Positions 16,259 to 55,769 of a stretch of 64,000 nucleotides of DNA are shown in pieces. The translations under genes were made by a program, and so were the position numbers. Within the stretch, counting starts at the first letter, position 1. Each line of letters starts with the position of its first letter. Origin of the DNA: Siphonodentalium dalli. Its lineage: Eukaryota > Mollusca > Scaphopoda > Gadilida > Siphonodentaliidae. Below the pieces are notes generated by a model. It ran no database searches. It was not told where the DNA came from and saw nothing but the letters and a program-made list of their open reading frames with translations. Location: contig CP136067.1 of assembly GCA_032622095.1 (NCBI GenBank), forward strand, positions 38,917,549 to 38,981,548, in the 5' to 3' direction.

Positions 16259-17194
16259 GTAATACTTGTAAAATCAGAAACAACAATAAAACCATGTCTG
16301 TCATACACAGACTTCAGTGCTCTTGATTTACTCCACCATCAAATGTTTTGCTAATCGCATGTAATGTGTCTGTATTATTCTGTGCAAACATATTGTATAT
16401 ATACTTAAATTCACTTAATTTCCTATAGCATCTTACCATTGGTTCTAACATGATAATGCACTTAATAGTCCAGTGTATTTATGAGAATAAAGTGCCAAAC
16501 CTCAAAGTAATTGCAACATAATGTTTCTTAGCAGGAATAAGTCTATTAACCAGTTATAAACAACATACTAAAATAAAAAAGGATCAAGAAAGGCGAAATT
16601 GATAAATTTTGTGAAATAAATTTGGTAAAATTTGGTAAAATATTCATTTTATAGCTTTTCAAGGATGTTTATAAAAAACTTATGGCCATACGATCCCTTT
16701 GTATTGACTCTTTTTCCAAAAATGCCATTTTGGACTGTTTTGTGGTGTTTTTTGTCCACTTTAAAGTTTTTGTTGTTGGCACAAATAGTAAACAAAAATG
16801 AATACAATTAGTGTTTAATGTGTAAAATCATTTGAACATTCCTCCTAAAACACTTAGTGTTTGAAAAAATAGGATAGGTTATGGCAATCAACAGTCACTG
16901 GATTTGACATATTTTTCAAGAACTGACTTCAAATGTGAATCACAAAATGCTATGATCTTGACACCATATTCTAGTCATTGGAGACAAAGGGTTGTTTTAT
17001 TCAAGTTTGTGTAGGTTATTCTTGCATGATAAAAAGTTTTATACTTTAATAATTAGTGGAGGTTTATTTAGAACTTTATGAGCATGTTGTATTAAACAAG
17101 CCCGAAATAATGATTTGCCATTTCACCATCGAGTTGCAACATAAAGGATTGTAGCTCTAAATATTCTAAGGATTCATTGGGTCGTAAATAGAGG

Positions 17195-17280
17195 ATATGA
17201 AATGAGTGTTTTTCGCATATGATATTTATGAAACGAGTCAAGACGAGTTTCATAAATATCATATGAGAAAAACACGAATT
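17195..17280. repeat. Hairpin with 'catatgatatttatgaaac' arms
   Basis: The left arm 'gtgtttttcgcatatgatat' pairs with 'atatcatatgagaaaaacac' across a short centre 'gagtcaagacgag'. It is nested in the larger inverted-repeat element. No coding content. Confidence 0.75.
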
Positions 17281-17743
17281 ACATATTCCATTTATCATAT
17301 GACACCTATAAATTGATTATGATGTCCAAAACGCACACAAATCACTAAATAGCTATATGGCATCGGTAGCAAAAGGTTAATGTGACGTCACTTCATTGCA
17401 CCGGAAGCCCAATTACACCTGGTGAAAAAGCAGAAATAATATGCAAGCGAAGATATAGTGCGCTATTCTGTTCTCAGTTTGTGACATTATATCGTATGTT
17501 TATTAGATAAATACGAATTACATATTCTATTTATCGTATAACAATGTCCAAAACTATATATTTCAAGATTATAATTGCGAGAATTTCGGCGTCGCGTTGA
17601 TTGACGCGCACGAATTTGACCTGAATTTAGTCAGAGATACGGCTCGGCCCCGGCTGCCATTCAGCCAATCAGAACACATGTTTTGTCAACAAACCAATCA
17701 AATTATCGGAAGGTGATATGAACTAGTAGTTTATATAAGAAAT

Positions 17744-17885
17744 GAACGGCGGTTTCAATGTGGTCATGGGATTTTGACCGCGAGAAAAATTCAGCAAACT
17801 GCATGAACCCCGAATGGGGTTCATGCGGAGTTTGCTGATTTTTTATCGCGGTCAAAACCCATGACCACGTTGAATCCGCCGTTTA
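17744..17885. repeat. 142-bp near-perfect palindrome
   Basis: 'aacggcggtttcaa' at the left pairs with 'ttgaatccgccgtt' at the right. Inner blocks 'tggtcatggg'/'cccatgacca', 'cagcaaact'/'agtttgctg' and 'gcatgaaccccg'/'ggggttcatgc' also pair, with the centre near 17815. Mismatches and small indels are few, which points to a fairly recent foldback element. Confidence 0.82.
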
Positions 17886-17984
17886 TTATTTATATTTATA
17901 TACTTACGCTCTTTAAAACACTTCTTCAAATATGTCCGTTATTTCGTCAAAAACACTTTTTCAAATATCTCCGTTATTTCGTTT

Positions 17985-21900: not shown

Positions 21901-22260
21901 GAAACAATATGTTCACCGCTACCACACAAGATTGTATTGTTATTGTACACAATGTTGTTGGGCGAGACTACACATATGTGTTAATCACATGCGTATACAC
22001 ATTTGTGTGGTTGATCCAAACAATAGTGTTCACCGCCATTACACTATTTGTATTGTTATTGTACACAATGTTGTTGTGCGAGACTACACATATGTGTAAA
22101 TCACATGCGTACACATTTGTGTGGTTGATCCAAACAATAGTGTTCACCGCCATTACACTATTTGTATTGTTCTTGTACACAATGTTGTTGGGCAAGACAA
22201 CACATATGTGTTAATAAAATGTGTACAAATTTGTGTGGTCGATTCAAACAATAGGCTGCT
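21900..22260 (+). repeat. Tandem repeat of ~115 bp, three units
   Basis: 'gttcaccgccattacacta' recurs near 22029 and 22142, with a diverged copy at 21910. Each unit also contains 'ttgttattgtacacaatgtt', 'gagactacacatatgtgt' and 'gtgtggttgatccaaaca'. Spacing is about 119 and 113 bp. Short palindromes such as 'acacatatgtgt' lie in each unit. Confidence 0.85.
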
Positions 22261-25998: not shown

Positions 25999-26305
25999 GT
26001 TATCCTTCATCACATTTCATCCCATTTTCCTCTCTTCTGATTGGCTGAGAGTGCGTCACATGGCGGGCGATAAATCACCATACCTCGAGGGTAACATTGT
26101 CCCAGTTATTGACCGCTCAGCTGTTGCCAATAAATACATAACTACGAAGAACTCAACGCGCAGAGATTCCCTGACAGCTCCTTAATAATTTCAAAAAACA
26201 CTGTTTTTATAAACCCCACTGTATCATAACAACCGCGAACTGTGGTGTTTGCTAATTTGCATAATTGTGTGTTTTTTTAGTTGCAATTAAAGCACGCTAT
26301 GTATA
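25999..26305 (+). repeat. Left part of interrupted element A (homologue of 31585-31898)
   Basis: Shares with 31.6-31.9 kb the words 'ccattttcctctcttctgat', 'gagagtgcgtcacatggcgg', 'gaccgctcagctgtt', 'aaccgcgaactgtggtgttt' and 'attaaagcacgctatgtata'. The homology breaks at 26305 and resumes at 30130, so a 3.8-kb segment lies inside this copy. Confidence 0.85.
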
Positions 26306-26313
26306 ATATAAGT

Positions 26314-26447
26314 TACACGGCTTGTTGATGGGGGATACGGTGTGGTATGCCCCGGTAGATGCTCGTATCCCCCGAGGCGATAGCCGAGGGGGATACGAGA
26401 GTCGACCGGGGCATACCACACCGTATCCCCCATCAACAAGCCGTGTA
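26314..26447. repeat. 134-bp palindrome at the left end of the insertion
   Basis: 'tacacggcttgttgatgggg' pairs with 'ccccatcaacaagccgtgta', and 'gatacggtgtggtatgcccc' with its complement. A centre of roughly 30 bp around 'ccgaggcgatagccgagg' carries its own small stem. The arms are nearly perfect, and it is the most stable-looking structure in this part of the window. Confidence 0.88.
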
Positions 26448-26794
26448 ATGTATTTATCCCCGGTCAAAATTAACCAGATATTCCCACAGACATAAAGCGC
26501 GGAAACGAGCAACGAACAGTAACTCTATTTGATTAGACTGCTCATACGATGAATATATTTATATAGCTGTTTCCACAATTTGTCCATAAATACTTGCTGG
26601 CCTCGCTTACTTTTGGAATCTATATGTTAGAAGATATAAAAGAGAGCAATACACTTCAAAAATAGTAATGGTAAATGAGTCAGACAACGTAAATAAATGA
26701 AGCAAGAGTAGCAAGATAACATCACACCAGGAATCAACGTGGCTTTGAAAGATGTACATTAGACCTTCAAACTTTTACCAGGTCATAAAAATTC

Positions 26795-29700
26795 TACTAG
26801 GGGCATACGAGATTGTTATGACCTTGTAAAATCTGTCTTCTCTATATAGCGACGACAGTTTTTGCCGGGTAATATCAGTTTTACACGGGTCCTTGTAAAA
26901 TATGTCTTCTCTATATAGCGACGACAATTTTTGAGGGGTAATATAAGTTTTACACAGGGCATACGAGATTGTTATGACCCGTGTAAAATCTGTCTTCTCT
27001 ATAGAGCGACGACAATTTTTGCGGGGTAATATCACTTTTACACGGGGCATACGAGATTGTTATGACCCGTGTAAAATCGGTCTTTTCTATATAGCGACGA
27101 CAATTTTTGCGGGGTAATATCAGTTTTACACGGGGCATACGAGATTGTTATGACCCGTTTAAAATCTGTCTTCTCTATATAGCGACGACAATTTTTGCGG
27201 GGTAATATCAGTTTTACACGGGGCATACGAGATTGTTATGACCAGTGTAAAATCTGTCTTCTCTATATAGCGACGACAATTTTTGCGGGGTAATATAAGT
27301 TTTACACGGGGCATACGAGATTGTTATGACCCGTGTAAAATCGGACTTTTCTATATAGCGACGACAATTTTTGCGGGGTAATATCAGTTTTACACGGGGC
27401 ATACGAGATTGTTATGACCCGTTTAAAATCTGTCTTCTCTATATAGCGACGACAATTTTTGCGGGGTAATATCAGTTTTACACGGGGCATACGAGATTGT
27501 TATGACCAGTGTAAAATCTGTCTTCTCTATATAGCGACGACAATTTTTGCGGGGTAATATAAGTTTTACACGGGGCATACGAGATTGTTATGACCCGTGT
27601 AAAATCTGTCTTCTCTATATAGCGACGACAATTTTTGCGGGGTAATATCAGTTTTACACGGGACATACGAGATTGTTATGACCCGTTTAAAATCTGTCTT
27701 CTCTATATAGCGACGACAATTTTTGCGGGGTAATATCAGTTTTACACGGGGCATACGAGATTGTTATGACCTTGTAAAATATGTCTTCTCTATATAGCGA
27801 CGACAATTTTTGCGGGGTAATATAAGTTTTACACGGGGCATACGAGATTGTTATGACCCGTGTAAAATCTGTCTTCTCTATATAGCGACGACAATTTTTG
27901 CGGGGTAATATCAGTTTTACACGGGGCATACGAGATTGTTATGACCTGTGTAAAATCTGTCTTCTCTATGTAGCGACGACAATTTTTGCGGGGTAATATC
28001 AGTTTTACACGGGGCATACGAAATTGTTATGACCCGTGTAAAATCTGTCTTCTTGATATAGCGACGACAAGTTTTGCGGGGTAATATCAATTTTACATGG
28101 GGCATACGAGATTGTTATGACCTTGTAAAATCTGTCTTCTCTATATAGCGACACGACAATTTTTGATGGGTAATATCAGTTTTACACGGGGAATACGAGA
28201 TTCTTATGACCCGTGTAAAATCTGTCTTCTCTATATAGCGACGACAATTTTTGCGGGGTAATATCAGTTTTACACGGGGCATACGAGATTGTTATGACCT
28301 TGTAAAATCTGTCTTCTCTATATAGCGACGACAATTTTTGCGGGGTAATATAAGTTTTACACGGGGCATACGAGATTGTTATGACCTTGTAAAATCTGTC
28401 TTCTCTATATAGCGACGACAATTTTTGCGGGGTAATATAAGTTTTACACGGGGCATACGAGATTGTTATGACCTTGTAAAATCTGTCTTCTCTATATAGC
28501 GACGACAATTTTTGCGGGGTAATATCAGTTTTACACGGGGCATACGATATTGTTATGACCCGTGTAATATCTGTTTTCTCTATATAGCGACGACAATTTT
28601 TGCGGGGTAATATCACTTTTACACGTGGCATACGAGATTGTTATGACCCGTGTAAAATCTGTCTTCTCTATATAGCGACGACAATTTTTGCGGGGTAATA
28701 TAAGTTTTACACGGGGCATACGAGATTGTTATGACCTTGTTAAATCTGTCTTCTCTATATAGCGACGACAATTTTTGCGGGGTAATATCAGTTTTACACG
28801 GGGCATACGAGATTGTTATGACCTTGTAAAATCTGTCTTCTCTATATAGCGGCGACAATTTTTGCGGGGTAATATAAGTTTTACACGGGGCATACGAGAT
28901 TGTTATGACCTTGTAAAATCTGTCTTCTCTATATAGCGACGACAATTTTTGCGGGGTAATATCACTTTTACACGGGGCATACGAGATTGTTATGACCTGT
29001 GTAAAATCTGTCTTCTCTATGTAGCGACGACAATTTTTGCGGGGTAATATCAGTTTTACACGGGGCATACGAAATTGTTATGACCCGTGTAGAATCTGTC
29101 TTCTTGATATAGCGACGACAAGTTTTGCGGGGTAATATCAATTTTACATGGGGCATACGAGATTGTTATGACCTTGTAAAATCTGTCTTCTCTATATAGC
29201 GACACGACAATTTTTGAGGGGTAATATCAGTTTTACACGGGGAATACGAGATTCTTATGACCCGTGTAAAATCTGTCTTCTCTATATAGCGACGACAATT
29301 TTTGCGGGGTAATATCAGTTTTACACGGGGCATACGAGATTGTTATGACCTTGTAAAATCTGTCTTCTCTATATAGCGACGACAATTTTTGCGGGGTAAT
29401 ATAAGTTTTACACGGGGCATACGAGATTGTTATGACCTTGTAAAATCTGTCTTCTCTATATAGCGACGACAATTTTTGCGGGGTAATATCAGTTTTACAC
29501 GGGGCATACGATATTGTTATGACCCGTGTAATATCTGTTTTCTCTATATAGCGACGACAATTTTTGCGGGGTAATATAACTTTTACACGGGGCATACGAG
29601 ATTGTTATGACCCGTGTAAAATCTGTCTTCTCTATATAGCGACGACAATTTTTGCGGGGTAATATCAGTTTTACACGGGGCATACGAGATTGTTATGACC

Positions 29701-30013
29701 TTGTTAAATCTGTCTTCTCTATATAGCGACGACAATTTTTGCGGGGTAATATCAGTTTTACTCGGGGCATACGAGATTGTTATGACCTTGTAAAATCTGT
29801 CTTCTCTATATAGCGGCGACAATTTTTGCGGAGTAATATAAGTTTTACACGGGGCATACGAGATTGTTATGACCTTGTAAAATCTGTCTTCTCTATATAG
29901 CGACGACAATTTTTGCGGGGTAATATCACTTTTACACGGGGCATACGCGATTGTAATGACCCGTGTAAAATCTGTCTTCTCTATATGGCGACGACAATTT
30001 TTGCGGGGTAATA
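26795..30013. repeat. Satellite array of 87/88-bp units, about 36 copies
   Basis: Each unit contains 'gcatacgagattgttatgac', 'aaaatctgtcttctctatat', 'agcgacgacaatttttgcgg' and 'ggtaatatcagttttacacg'. The 88-bp type has 'gacccgtgtaaaa', the 87-bp type 'gaccttgtaaaa'. In the 88-bp type CCCGTGTAAAA and TTTTACACGGG form an 11-bp inverted repeat, so a unit can fold. Higher-order structure exists: a three-unit (264-bp) period at 27.0-27.75 kb, and a larger block near 28.0-28.9 kb repeated 1051 bp downstream with one unit lost. Minus-strand open frames (MPRVKLILPRKNCRRY...) are by-products: 87 is divisible by three, so runs of 87-bp units stay open. Confidence 0.95.
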
Positions 30014-30129
30014 CGAAATAAGTGTTTCCTGTTTAGTTAACATATATCGAACAAGAACACCGGGATACGGCGTGGTATGGCCCTAGAAGAACAATGGTGC
30101 CTAAGAAGGCTTACAATTCTACAGAGGGG

Positions 30130-30385
30130 ATAAATGGTGTTATAGCGGACACAAATCCGTTAAATGTGTAATGTTACTATTGGACCTTTGTATATCAATA
30201 ATAAAGACCGTGGGACAAATAGATAAACATTATTATGCAGTTGGTGTGTGCTGCAGGCAATCGAAAATACGATGTACATACGTTACAAATACGTTTATGT
30301 ACTAGTTCAAATAGCCACACTTTATTGTTTATCAATTGACTATTTCTTTTCTTCAATACATTCCTATGACTTCAGAGAATACCCG
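30130..30385 (+). repeat. Right part of interrupted element A (homologue of 31899-32160)
   Basis: 'gacacaaatccgtta', 'ccgtgggacaaatagataaa', 'catacgttacaaatacgttt' and 'tttatcaattgactatttct' are shared in order with 31.9-32.15 kb. It continues the element interrupted at 26305. Confidence 0.85.
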
Positions 30386-31139: not shown

Positions 31140-31575
31140 ACGGCCATTTGAAACGAAACCGAACATTTCGCTGCTCATGGCTACTCATGGCTACTCAACT
31201 TGCTCAAATTGCTTTACTCCTCTTTCCGTGAACCGATTTCCACCATGCAACCAGCAAACTGACCGGAGAATAGCTGCGCAAATGACGGTCTGTTAATTGA
31301 TCCAGATTATGAATGATTTATTTTCTAAATAGCGATGATCCCAACATAAAATTCACTTTTCGAACTGGATTAAAGAATATATGCGCGCATTTATGCCTGC
31401 TAGTAAGGAGGTTCGTGTGTACTCCTTTGTCAGATAACAAAACAGTTATCACTCTTGTTTTCGTGAGACACGGGGATTTGTCGCCGCTCTCGACCTGGAA
31501 TGTCACCATCGGGCCGCCAGGCCCTCGGGTGACATTCCAGGTCGAGAGCGGGCGACAAATCCCCGTGTCTCACTC
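31140..31575 (+). repeat. Dispersed repeat ending in a hairpin, copy 1
   Basis: 'aaacgaaaccgaacatttcg', 'tgctttactcctctttccgt', 'atatgcgcgcatttatgcct' and the terminal hairpin all recur in the same orientation at 54965-55380. The hairpin arms at 31463-31573 begin 'gtgagacacggggatttgtc' and are almost perfect around a short 'atcgggccgccaggccct' centre. Confidence 0.85.
31463..31573. repeat. 111-bp hairpin
   Basis: 'gtgagacacggggatttgtc' pairs with 'gacaaatccccgtgtctcac' at the far end, and 'ctctcgacctggaatgtcac' with its complement inside. A matching hairpin occurs at 55244-55364 with a small insertion in the right arm. Confidence 0.88.
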
Positions 31576-31584
31576 AATCGCGGG

Positions 31585-32160
31585 CGATAAACCATATTAT
31601 TATCCTTCATCCCATTTTCCTCTCTTCTGATTAGCTGAGAGTGCGTCACATGGCGGGCCGCAAATCACTTATTACCCTCGAGGGTAAATTTGTCTCAGCT
31701 ATTGACCGCTCAGCTGTTACCAGTAAACATAGAACTATGAAGAACTCAATGTGTAGAGATTCTCTCACAGCTCTTAAATTAATTCCGAAAAGACTGTTTT
31801 TATAAACACCACTGTTTCATAACAACCGCGAACTGTGGTGTTTGCTAATTTGCATAATTTTGTGTTTTTGTTAATTGCAATTAAAGCACGCTATGTATAA
31901 ATGGTGTTATCGTGGACACAAATCCGTTATAAGGTGTAATGTTCCTATTGTACCTTTTTATATCAATAACAAATACCGTGGGACAAATAGATAAACCTTA
32001 TCATGCAGTTGGTATGTGCTGCAGACAATTGCACATACGATGAGCATACGTTACAAATACGTTTATGTGTAATCGCCAAAGATCAAATAGCCACTCTTTA
32101 CTGTTTATCAATTGACTATTTCTTTTCGGCAATACATTCCTCAGACTTTAGAAGAATACC
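31585..32160 (+). repeat. Uninterrupted element B: empty site for the satellite insertion
   Basis: Collinear with 25999-26305 joined to 30130-30385. The junction 'cgctatgtataaatggtgtt' at 31888-31907 has nothing in place of the 3.8-kb insert. This allows the insertion boundaries at 26.3 and 30.1 kb to be placed to within a few bases. Confidence 0.85.
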
Positions 32161-34765: not shown

Positions 34766-35948
34766 AGACCCCGCAGGGGTCTCGTTCGCGAGCGATAAGC
34801 ATATACGTGTACGCGAAATCAACGCTATACTATTCGATGTTTTGGCGGGAAATCTATAAATATCGATTTGTTACTAAATATACTGACCTATTTAAATTAA
34901 CGTTACTTATCAATTGCCAATCAAAATTAACGTTACTTATTAGTTACGACGTTGACCTAGTGACCTAGAGACTACAGACTCCAGTATGATCCAGTATCCG
35001 GTTCCACCTCAAAGTTCATAATAATTAACATAAGTCATAACTGATTATTTATAAGTGGTCAGGAGCAAAGGTGAGTTAGACTCCATTATAAATATCGAAA
35101 TATTGTAAATTTGTGGATGATATTTTTCCATAAATATGTCAACAACTTACATTTGTTACAACTTACAAGAGACGAAAAGTGCTGAAATTCGAAACGGCAA
35201 TTGTAATTTGTAGTAAGTTGTAATTGTTCTGTAAAGGTTTTGTGTTCATATTTCATTCAATTATTACAAATATTTGACTCGAAACACAATTCTAGTTTGC
35301 CTATTGTACATTTGGAGCTTGTCTTTAATTTTCTATAGACGTTTTCACATAAAAGATTGATGGAATAGTGTCGAAGCTCGAAGCCAACAAACCGGAATTA
35401 TATTTATAACTTAATCAACCAATATTCAGCGGTTCCCCTTTAATTTTAAATCGACGGTTACCAAGGAAATCCAAAGTACTGCTCATCCTAACATCGGCGA
35501 GATAAAAAATAGTTCGCAACATTTTTATCATTTGAGTCATTATATTCACACAGGAAAGAAGGAATATAATTATGTAGTGTATTAAATTGTTGGCCAAATT
35601 TGTGTTTTTGTGCAAAAGCGAATGAAATACAAGCTTGTGCAATTTGTGGTGAATTATTACGCAAAACAATTATGTCAATAGTCCGCAGACATGACATTGA
35701 AATGTCTATTTTGTGTAATCTGATCGACAGAACACGAATATTTGTCAAGACGGAGAAATGCACATCACTGTCACTGTGGTAAGCATTTTGTGCCAATTTA
35801 CGAACACCATTTGAACATGATATTTTATAGAAAAGTTTAGCCAGACAAGCCACAACTTGGCACAAGAATGTTCAAAGGTTGCCGACGATTTTCAATTTCA
35901 GCGATTTCGCACAAAAAATAACAAAGTTACAATGGCAATGCCTTTGAC
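34766..35948. other. Mostly unassigned; one longer minus-strand open frame
   Basis: A 34-bp hairpin ('gaaacgagacccc'/'ggggtctcgttcg') lies at about 34757-34792. The minus-strand open frame 35865-35488 (125 codons, including AQACISFAFAQKHKFGQQFN) is the longest non-repeat frame of the window but matches nothing I know, has no visible upstream exon and may be chance. Confidence 0.4.
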
Positions 35949-36086
35949 CACAGAAATTGGAATCACTGACCTTTATGCAATTTTTTGAGATTTTTTTGGA
36001 GTTATAGGCATTAGGGATCCCTAATGCCTATAACTCCAAAAAAATCTCAAAAAATTGCATAAAGGTCAGTGATTCCAATTTCTGTG
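35949..36086. repeat. Perfect 138-bp palindrome without spacer
   Basis: The left arm begins 'cacagaaattggaatcactg' and runs to the centre GGGATCCC at 36014-36021. The right arm is its exact reverse complement, ending 'cagtgattccaatttctgtg'. Each arm is 69 bp, with no mismatch found and no loop. Outside the arms the symmetry stops at once. Confidence 0.93.
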
Positions 36087-36731
36087 ATCGGGGACCTCCG
36101 TATAGTCCAATGTGTATCTATAGTATAGGCTAAGTTGCCCAATACGGCAATAGCCCACTGCTCTGACATATGTATTGGCCTCCCAGTCCCGGCGCTGGTT
36201 ACTCGTGGAAGGTCTGTGTGTTACTCGTGCAACCTGCAGGTACCGGTAGGTCTGTGATGGTTCACGTGTTCATCACGGTTGTACCATAATCGTGGCGCAG
36301 TCTAGTGTTGAAACGATTAGTGAATTTCAAAGTCGACTTAGTCGAGGCCCAAAAGTCACGTTGCGTCGACTAGTCGGTACCCGATATCAAAACTTTCAAA
36401 CATAACATGGTACGGAAAATTCATTGTACATGGCGTACACTGATGACTGATGCAATGACGGTCTATTCGACTCTATTGCATAGCGCATTTCCCTGCATAG
36501 ACACCAATTTATTTGGGAAATAATACAGTAAACATCTTAATATTTATCCAACACACTGAATGTAATTATATAATTAGACATGTGGTGGATAATGATTAAA
36601 AACACAATCATTTATACAGGTTTTAAATTTATTATCGGCGTTCGAGATTTCGTTTAGGGATCACCAATAAACTGGTGCCGAGCGGTGTCACTATAAAATG
36701 TTAATGTTCCGACTAAATACGCCCTATAGTA
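36087..36731. other. No gene recognised
   Basis: Non-coding sequence with no supported open frame, repeat or hairpin beyond short words. Confidence 0.5.
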
Positions 36732-54964: not shown

Positions 54965-55380
54965 CATTTGAAACGAAACCGAACATTTCGTTGCATGGCT
55001 ACTCAACATCCAAATTGCTTTACTCCTCTTTCCGTGAACCGATTCCCACCATGCGACCAGGAAACTGACCGGGGAATAGCTGCTTAGAATGTTTAATTAT
55101 AAATAGCGAGGATTCCAACACAAAATTAACTTTCCGAACTGGATTAAAGAGTATATGCGCGCATTTATGCCTGCTAGTAAGGAGGTTTGTGTGTACTACA
55201 TACTCCTGTGTCAGATAACAAAACAGTTGTCACCCTTGTTTTCGTGAGACACGGGGATTTGTCGCCGCTCTCTACCTGGAATGTCACCATCGGGCATGGC
55301 GGCCCTCGGGTGACATTCCAGGTCTGACCAGGTCTCGAGCGGGCGACAAATCCCCGTGTCTCACTCAATCGCGGGCGACA
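54965..55380 (+). repeat. Dispersed repeat ending in a hairpin, copy 2
   Basis: Direct copy of 31140-31575, ending in the hairpin at 55244-55364. The right arm carries an extra 'tgaccaggtct' relative to the first copy. Confidence 0.85.
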
Positions 55381-55769
55381 ACTGTATAATATTCCATCTG
55401 TTGATGGCGATTTGAACAAATATGAATATTTCTGCAACGAACGCCGCCCGTGCCTTTAACTCAATGCATGGTGTAGTATCGCTATGTATTGTGTACATTG
55501 TGTACATTTCCGATGTATACACCAGCTTGTATTTGTAAAATAGATTAAAAGTGAAAAAAAAGGTAACTTGGACCAAAGATGTTGGATTGAAAAACGTCAC
55601 GCATACATAAATATGTTGATATAGTTATATTTGGAGTCTGCACACCGGTGCTGATGGGATTAAATCTCATCGAAAAACGAACCTGTTGATGAATGCTTTA
55701 TTTGCTCAATCATGAATTAACATGAAATTAGAGATGAATGTGAACATATATACACTATTTACAACATAG

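Follow-up and report, generated by a model that had tools for sequence, protein, structure and literature searches.

A satellite-carrying insertion in the genome of Siphonodentalium dalli, probably a non-autonomous Crypton derivative with a long hairpin at one end

The window analyzed here was a 64,000-nucleotide stretch of the genome of the scaphopod Siphonodentalium dalli (contig 7, 38917549 to 38981548; the assembly had 2.2 Gb in 9 contigs), and it contained an insertion that carried its own array of satellite DNA and was probably derived from a Crypton, a type of mobile element with a tyrosine recombinase. The insertion displayed the structure terminal palindrome–inner flank–spacer–satellite array–right end (Table 1), and its boundaries were set from 14 right ends, 21 left ends, and 17 complete copies (see below). 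A preliminary description of the window, made from the letters alone, had placed the insert at 26306 to 30129; the insert was real, but its exact limits lay a few bases away. The parts listed in that description were all recovered: a hairpin with 71-bp arms, a spacer, about 36 satellite units, and a right end sharing 22 bp with the hairpin arm (90.9% identity over the common stretch, as seen in relatives). The two hairpin arms were 90% complementary, and the hairpin folded as single-stranded DNA at −81.4 kcal/mol (z −20.3), with 0 of 200 shuffled sequences being equally stable. The left end had one such palindrome; a search of 30000 to 30200 gave no inverted repeats (the left and right ends were not compared in one search). 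The inner flank GGGGATAA was present in every complete copy read for this feature, and the array consisted of 35.6 copies of the 88-bp unit with 94% matches.

The stretch 31585 to 32160, 2 kb away, was collinear with both flanks of the insertion, as had been claimed, and it was continuous across the junction without the insert: identity to this stretch was 87.8% for the left flank (25999 to 26309; 295 bp aligned) and 86.4% for the right flank (30126 to 30385; 264 bp aligned). The host sequence itself was a dispersed repeat (best non-self identity 93% among the 40 places scored of 1802 candidates), and thus the empty site, initially regarded as preserved, was an uninterrupted paralogue rather than an allele of the insert locus.

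Table 1. Positions of the insertion, its parts, and its target within the window
Feature	Position	Strand	Remarks
Whole element	26307..30133	+	3827 bp, TATAAGTTACACGG ... GAGGGGATAA; boundaries from copy comparison and the paralogous empty site
Left half of target	26303..26306	+	ATAA here; ATAN elsewhere in the family
Terminal palindrome	26308..26453	+	Arms 26308-26378 / 26383-26453
Inner flank of palindrome	26454..26461	-	Minus strand GGGGATAA, identical to the right end of the element; then a short spacer and the arm TTACACGG
Spacer	26462..26799	+	Parts flank recombinase remnants in coding relatives
Satellite array	26800..30012	+	About 36 units of 88 bp; units contain sequence resembling the right-end/left-end junction (GGGGTAATATMAGTTTTACACGG)
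Right end	30008..30133	+	126 bp, terminates GAGGGGATAA
Target continuation	30134..30144	+	Seven free bases, then TATA (TAYR)
Paralogous host-repeat copy, empty site	31585..32160	+	ATAA at 31897-31900, then ATGGTGT, then TATC

The sequence comparison was applied to the whole assembly with both ends of the insertion. The 495-bp left part had 40 of 40 scored matches at 99 to 100% identity (674 candidates), while all the 40 scored matches of the right end were 100% identical (348 candidates). The exact 25-base left end occurred 88 times across all nine contigs (48 forward and 40 reverse; 0 for the reversed control), and a right end was found within 15 kb on the same strand for 54 of the 88 and not for the remaining 34; this pairing used 100 listed of the 121 right ends plus 11 added places, with a pattern that excluded T at the last base, and a few left ends within tandem duplications shared one right end. 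Hairpin, spacer, array, and right end occurred together in 17 complete copies including that of the window, which were chosen for having both ends listed or fetched and which lay in 16 different flanks (two copies in locus L021 shared a flank). Compared to the window copy, these 17 copies were 99.0 to 100% identical over the left 494 bp and 99.2 to 100% over the right 126 bp, whereas their arrays ranged from 1821 to 4798 bp, corresponding to 20.7 to 54.5 units; the family is thus young, as judged by the uniformity of its ends. A second sample took ends for which no exact partner was listed, 20 from each side: satellite units adjoined 19 of the right ends and 18 of the left ends, and no units were present beside the end in L065, L080, and L083. 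These comparisons identified a mobile element that has been active recently and carries its own satellite DNA, not an expansion unique to this locus, in agreement with the preliminary proposal of a mobile unit with its own satellite array.

Several candidate arrangements and partners were considered and rejected. Evenly spaced left ends in L023 and L024, taken as possible rolling-circle concatemers, were tandem duplications including host flank; one true end-to-end dimer was found, in L030. Left ends with a AACTGTCC-like flank (56 of 100 listed left-end rows, counted by eye; 346 in all), taken as a possible autonomous partner, represented an old copy inside a foldback element at the three loci read (L027 to L029). 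This foldback element of about 3 kb (3153 to 6208 of L027; also L028 and L029) had inverted ends of about 580 bp and housed the old satellite-element copy. Long elements were also considered as possible autonomous copies: array made up most of the middle of L031, L032, L035, and L036, no match to a recombinase was obtained for L033 and L034, and L037, located near a recombinase match, was an ordinary copy.

The alignment of many insertions, which had been suggested at the outset, defined the ends and revealed no target duplication. At the left, the element started with TATAAGTTACACGG (TATACGTTACACGG in L002), and the flanks ended with ATAN: ATA occupied positions −4 to −2 in 19 of the 21 left ends shown (two of them sharing one flank), and A, T, and A were found in 33, 31, and 32, respectively, of 34 distinct flanks hand-picked from 100 listed rows. 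At the right, GAGGGGATAA was followed by foreign DNA in 14 of 14 cases. When short direct repeats were looked for as a recombination substrate, ATA was found at both ends with the fourth base differing; L021 had ATAC at the left and ATAA at the right, and therefore the last right base belonged to the element and no target had been duplicated, as the paralogous empty site also indicated. The right flanks following ATAA were compared in 83 distinct cases (typed from 100 listed with a pattern that barred T at the fourth place; one flank was that of the dimer): positions 1 to 7 were nearly free with A favored at the first, they were followed by T in 76, A in 74, Y in 81, and R in 74 cases, and complete TAYR was present at this one fixed place in 67 cases. 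The target was accordingly bipartite, being composed of ATAN, seven free bases, and TAYR; the same layout was displayed by the element's own left end (ATAN-TATAAGT-TACA) and by the paralogous empty site (ATAA-ATGGTGT-TATC). It resembled the core site of tyrosine recombinases, in which two half-sites surround about 8 bases and exchange takes place one base in. Typically, these half-sites flank a segment of 6 to 8 bp (PMC3212892).

The junctions were one-sided. The right end plus TATAAG had one exact occurrence (C2:7108357), where a second element followed, giving the natural head-to-tail dimer L030; three further matches had one mismatch and ended with TATATG or TATAAT. At the left, all the 40 first-listed matches of the 495-bp left part started at query base 1 or 2 (the exact-left-end searches required TATAAG and were thus uninformative on left polarity). 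A single junction polarity was seen, this dimer excepted, and as regards a circular intermediate, the dimer was also the only form in which joined ends were found in the genome.

The preliminary description had recognized no transposase; this was true of the window copy, but same-ended relatives carried remnants of a Crypton-type recombinase. A genome search with PF00589 gave 150 matches, 150 of 1445 candidates being scored. The end L065, one of the three lacking satellite units, led to L098, in which the spacer (80%) and the right end (80%) adjoined a partial recombinase, its N-terminal portion (profile E 6.2e-11), and a DNA search with this recombinase part gave five places including the query. 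The relatives L099 to L102 were organized as follows: (i) L099 had the exact left end and a 94.5% right end 2.5 kb apart, with the order hairpin (76%), spacer start, remnants of a recombinase spread over three frames (E 6.6e-16, 7.7e-14, and 3.4e-06), rest of spacer (83%), satellite units, and right end; (ii) L100 combined the left end, its hairpin at 92%, with spacer and with remnants of the recombinase, likewise in three frames, and no right end lay within the stretch fetched; (iii) L101 had spacer and a fragment of the right end together with a partial recombinase match; and (iv) L102 had spacer and a partial recombinase match. In tblastn comparison with three other Crypton families (see below), L099 was closest to the 601-amino-acid (aa) family (E 4.6e-22 vs 1.7e-11 and 1.3e-08). 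The order and position of parts in these relatives fit a window element equal to the coding element minus its gene. Because the decayed same-ended relatives contained a DUF3504/PF00589 tyrosine recombinase, the insertion is very likely a non-autonomous derivative of a DUF3504-type Crypton that lost its gene, kept its ends, spacer, and expanded array, and was presumably moved by the recombinase of another Crypton. Genome-wide, tyrosine recombinase genes were abundant, and several families had many open frames of equal length.

The sequence comparison was also applied to three Crypton families with open recombinase genes, named 646-, 659-, and 601-aa by their open frames (the ATG/GTG frames used were 598, 653, and 585 aa, respectively). 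These families carried DUF3504 and PF00589 together with the motif HxxR..GH..Y, and their elements ended, on the downstream side of the gene, with a 158- to 187-bp palindrome. Two copies compared within each family were 98.9 to 99.1% identical. A sequence search of PDB with the 601-aa protein gave one weak integrase match (3nkh, E 0.0056). Among 20 hand-chosen recombinase loci (L038 to L057), 16 had a palindrome with at least 84% identity, and about nine different arms were distinguished by eye; only the downstream side was surveyed for L044 to L057, the side of the gene thus being judged only for the rest, and L042 had a second, more distant palindrome. As a control, the 64-kb window was scanned under identical settings and yielded three palindromes of at least 140 bp at 84%, two of which were Crypton-type ends. 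The inner flank of the palindrome repeated the right end of the element, being GTATGTAAATAT, GCATATGTAATAA, and CGGCGTGAAATAAA in the three families and GGGGATAA in the window element; the two agreed, by eye, over 12, 13 to 14, and 14 nt in the three families vs 8 nt in the window element. A bipartite target was also displayed by two of the three families. Of 22 distinct flanks of the 646-aa family (21 listed ones plus that of L039), 9 had TAY at offset 7, as in the target layout of the window element, and 0 to 3 had it at each of the others (binomial p 2.4e-6, the chance rate being assumed as 6%). In the 601-aa family, AT[GA]A, similar to its own arm ATGAAC, was located at offset 6 in 23 of the 56 distinct strings listed, or in 18 of 50 once the variants of one repeated string were merged (next offset 11 or 6).

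Additional copies of such ends were observed: (i) at 17733 to 17895 of the window, a palindrome whose left end ATATAAGAAATGAACGGCGG matched the 601-aa family and which may belong to another Crypton or a derivative; (ii) at 17185 to 17294 of the window, a palindrome with the inner flank GTCATATGATAA, resembling the ends of other recombinase families; and (iii) at C1:3298570 and C2:112677591, a 601-type right end directly followed by its own left end (ATAAGAAATGAACGGCG), giving candidate head-to-tail dimers.

When right and left ends were joined, either as in the natural dimer or from terminal pieces, the predicted fold had the two right-end copies paired with each other and the arms paired with each other; in the 646 and 659 families two bases of the left strand bulged out, and small mismatches or loops were found at this place in the window element and the 601 family. 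The junction of the natural dimer (GGGGATAATATAAGTTACACGG) was then set against the satellite unit (GGGGTAATATAAGTTTTACACGG, TATAAG variant). GGGG-TAATATMAGT was present in 29 of 36 units, as classified by the first 10 letters after GGGG, including 10 units of the TATAAG variant and 19 of the TATCAG variant, and other variants made up the remaining 7. None of 4794 further 70-base segments of the window reached the score of the TATAAG variant under two scorings, and this resemblance is suggestive of satellite units that began as joined ends. When paired changes were sought in the hairpin arms of the unit itself, almost nothing matched and no support was gained. In the composite loci L025, L026, L030, and L103, the right end, a short stretch, the spacer, and the array recurred together as a higher-order tandem block, a pattern explicable by unequal exchange between arrays.

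A course of events can be proposed for the Crypton derivative. The recombinase gene would have been lost while both ends, the gene-side spacer, and the expanded satellite array were retained; a recombinase supplied in trans by another Crypton would join the element's ends; the element would enter an ATAN-N7-TAYR site behind its ATAN half, with one strand exchanged ahead of the other and no duplication of the target; and replication would complete the insertion. Once single-stranded, the palindrome would fold to form the recombination site, and at joined ends it would complete a stem in which both half-sites were double-stranded and the 6- to 7-base centre was imperfectly paired. The satellite units would derive from joined ends, with their number changing by recombination. 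In integrons, a tyrosine recombinase acts on the folded single strand of attC with exchange of one strand. By analogy, the unusually long hairpin at one end of these Cryptons may fold into a recombination site; that they move through such a folded single-stranded site as integron cassettes do, with the satellite units being miniature joined ends, is put forward tentatively, as a possibility that we regard with some doubt. The likeness to attC cassettes is one of proposed mechanism, the window element being eukaryotic and not classed as a member; no integron integrase, platform, or cassette array was seen, no search aimed at these having been made. If the units were miniature joined ends, the recombinase itself could therefore add or remove them, and this would constitute a site-specific route for making and spreading satellite DNA.

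A number of results weighed against these interpretations. With respect to the recombinase, no match lay within 13 kb of the listed ends among the 150 scored of 1445 candidates (nearest 13.5 kb), an intact gene with the exact ends of the window element was not found, and the matches in same-ended relatives were split over three frames (L099 and L100) or partial (L101 and L102). With respect to targets, TAYR was missing from 16 of 83 cases, no clear target half-site emerged for the 659-aa family, and the listing for the 601-aa family was noisy (193 control matches vs 500, 100 of them listed). The palindrome was not found at 84% identity or above in 4 of the 20 recombinase loci (L046, L049, L053, and L057). 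The similarity between unit and junction was moderate, being reached under strict scoring by 8 (TATAAG) and 50 (TATCAG) of 20000 dinucleotide shuffles; these counts became 9 and 54 with a second scoring and 39 and 166 with the loosest one.

A Crypton derivative might instead move as an ordinary double-stranded circle, the palindrome being incidental or regulating transcription and the polarity resulting from biased mismatch repair. Such movement would accord with the typical use of two half-sites by tyrosine recombinases and with the circles proposed for Cryptons (PMC3212892). However, double-strand exchange of the 6- to 7-bp centre should yield both junction types, with about half of the insertions carrying TATAAGT on the right, and one type was seen, the dimer apart. 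An incidental palindrome is also hard to square with its being kept despite diverged sequences (about nine arms among 20 loci) and with an inner flank that repeats the other end in families with both ends known. We consider movement of this kind rather unlikely.

A Helitron or Helentron origin, first considered from the literature, was abandoned once the target logo and the links to a recombinase were available. The element would then be a HINE, i.e., a non-autonomous Helentron dependent on a Rep-helicase and rolling-circle replication, as are the satellite-carrying oyster elements, and this would fit the absence of target duplication, the subterminal hairpin, the central tandem repeats, the head-to-tail dimer, the abundance of Helitron N-terminal domains in the genome (151 matches), and the satellite arrays of published HINEs (PMC7492417). 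However, insertion took place at ATAN-N7-TAYR and not between T residues as for Helentrons and HINEs, and the Helitron-type ends raised in the preliminary description were not supported, since the ends TATAAG...GGGGATAA, read either way, had no TC...CTRR and insertion was not between A and T. Moreover, same-ended relatives held tyrosine recombinase remnants, with L099 pointing to a tyrosine recombinase, and the same anatomy was found in elements with open tyrosine recombinase genes. Given these remnants, no Rep-helicase partner was assigned, no systematic Rep-helicase search having been made near the ends. HINEs have 11- to 15-bp subterminal inverted repeats plus a short 3' palindrome; the window element displayed the 71-bp-arm palindrome of its left end and the 22-bp stretch of its right end that is related to the hairpin arm. 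A HINE is on balance very improbable. That the array was a local expansion beside an unrelated repeat, outside any mobile unit, has a negligible probability and was refuted by the 17 complete copies sharing hairpin, spacer, array, and right end at 16 flanks and by the agreeing second sample, although the locus lay in repeat-rich DNA and whole-stretch tandem duplications occurred at other copies (L023 and L024).

As a Crypton derivative, the window element was compared with described systems. It resembled the CryptonA group (PMC3212892) in the DUF3504 plus PF00589 tyrosine recombinase, the lack of terminal inverted repeats, the occurrence of non-autonomous derivatives, and, in the window element, the absence of target duplication; it differed from CryptonA in the one-end palindrome with an inner flank repeating the other end, the bipartite target, and the internal satellite array. 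According to the available text of that survey, no terminal repeats were reported for animal Cryptons and Crypton boundaries were difficult to characterize, and the words hairpin, palindrom-, and satellite were absent from its main text (PMC3212892). Cg_HINE, Pearl, and DINE-1 were similar in effect, being gene-less transposons that spread satellite arrays of varied length without target duplication, but they differed in enzyme class, ends (11- to 15-bp subterminal repeats), and T-rich insertion sites (PMC7492417 and PMC4067079). A Crypton-related satellite is already in print, because CgiSat40, a 673-bp oyster satellite, was labeled DNA/Crypton in a table; it shared with the window element a tandem repeat with a Crypton link, but the label was one of similarity only, the unit was long, and the portion of the paper available described no element ends, hairpin, or recombination site (PMC8268682). 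SE elements of Vibrio, which are strand-biased circularizing integrative elements with tyrosine recombinases and a 6-bp centre, provided a bacterial precedent for strand-biased end joining by a tyrosine recombinase; they differed in being bacterial and having several genes, with no inverted repeat detected at their sites and no satellite mentioned in the text available (PMC9345347).

A description of hairpin-ended Cryptons was not found in a literature search judged mostly by titles, which covered subscription journals, preprints, and supplements little, and PMC11136912 contained no mention of Crypton or hairpin. Within these limits, a satellite-carrying Crypton with a hairpin end appears undescribed. 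The earlier suggestion of an undescribed family thus applies to this hairpin-ended Crypton version, which looks new, and not to satellite-carrying transposons in general, which have been published as Helentron derivatives, oysters included (PMC7492417 and PMC4067079). An unrelated transposon class, with its full anatomy, is hereby added to those carrying and seeding satellite DNA. The genome offers precisely delimited ends, a target of two parts, a terminal palindrome common to these elements, and recombinase genes with open frames, so that the Crypton mechanism, of which we know of no test, becomes directly testable.

Three further repeats were observed in the window: (i) two copies of one hairpin family (TTTTCGTGAGACAC) at 31463 to 31573 and 55223 to 55385, one of which adjoined the host repeat of the insertion; (ii) a 144-bp palindrome with 98.6% identity at 35946 to 36089, to which no origin was assigned; and (iii) a 114-bp tandem repeat of 3.1 units at 21902 to 22254.

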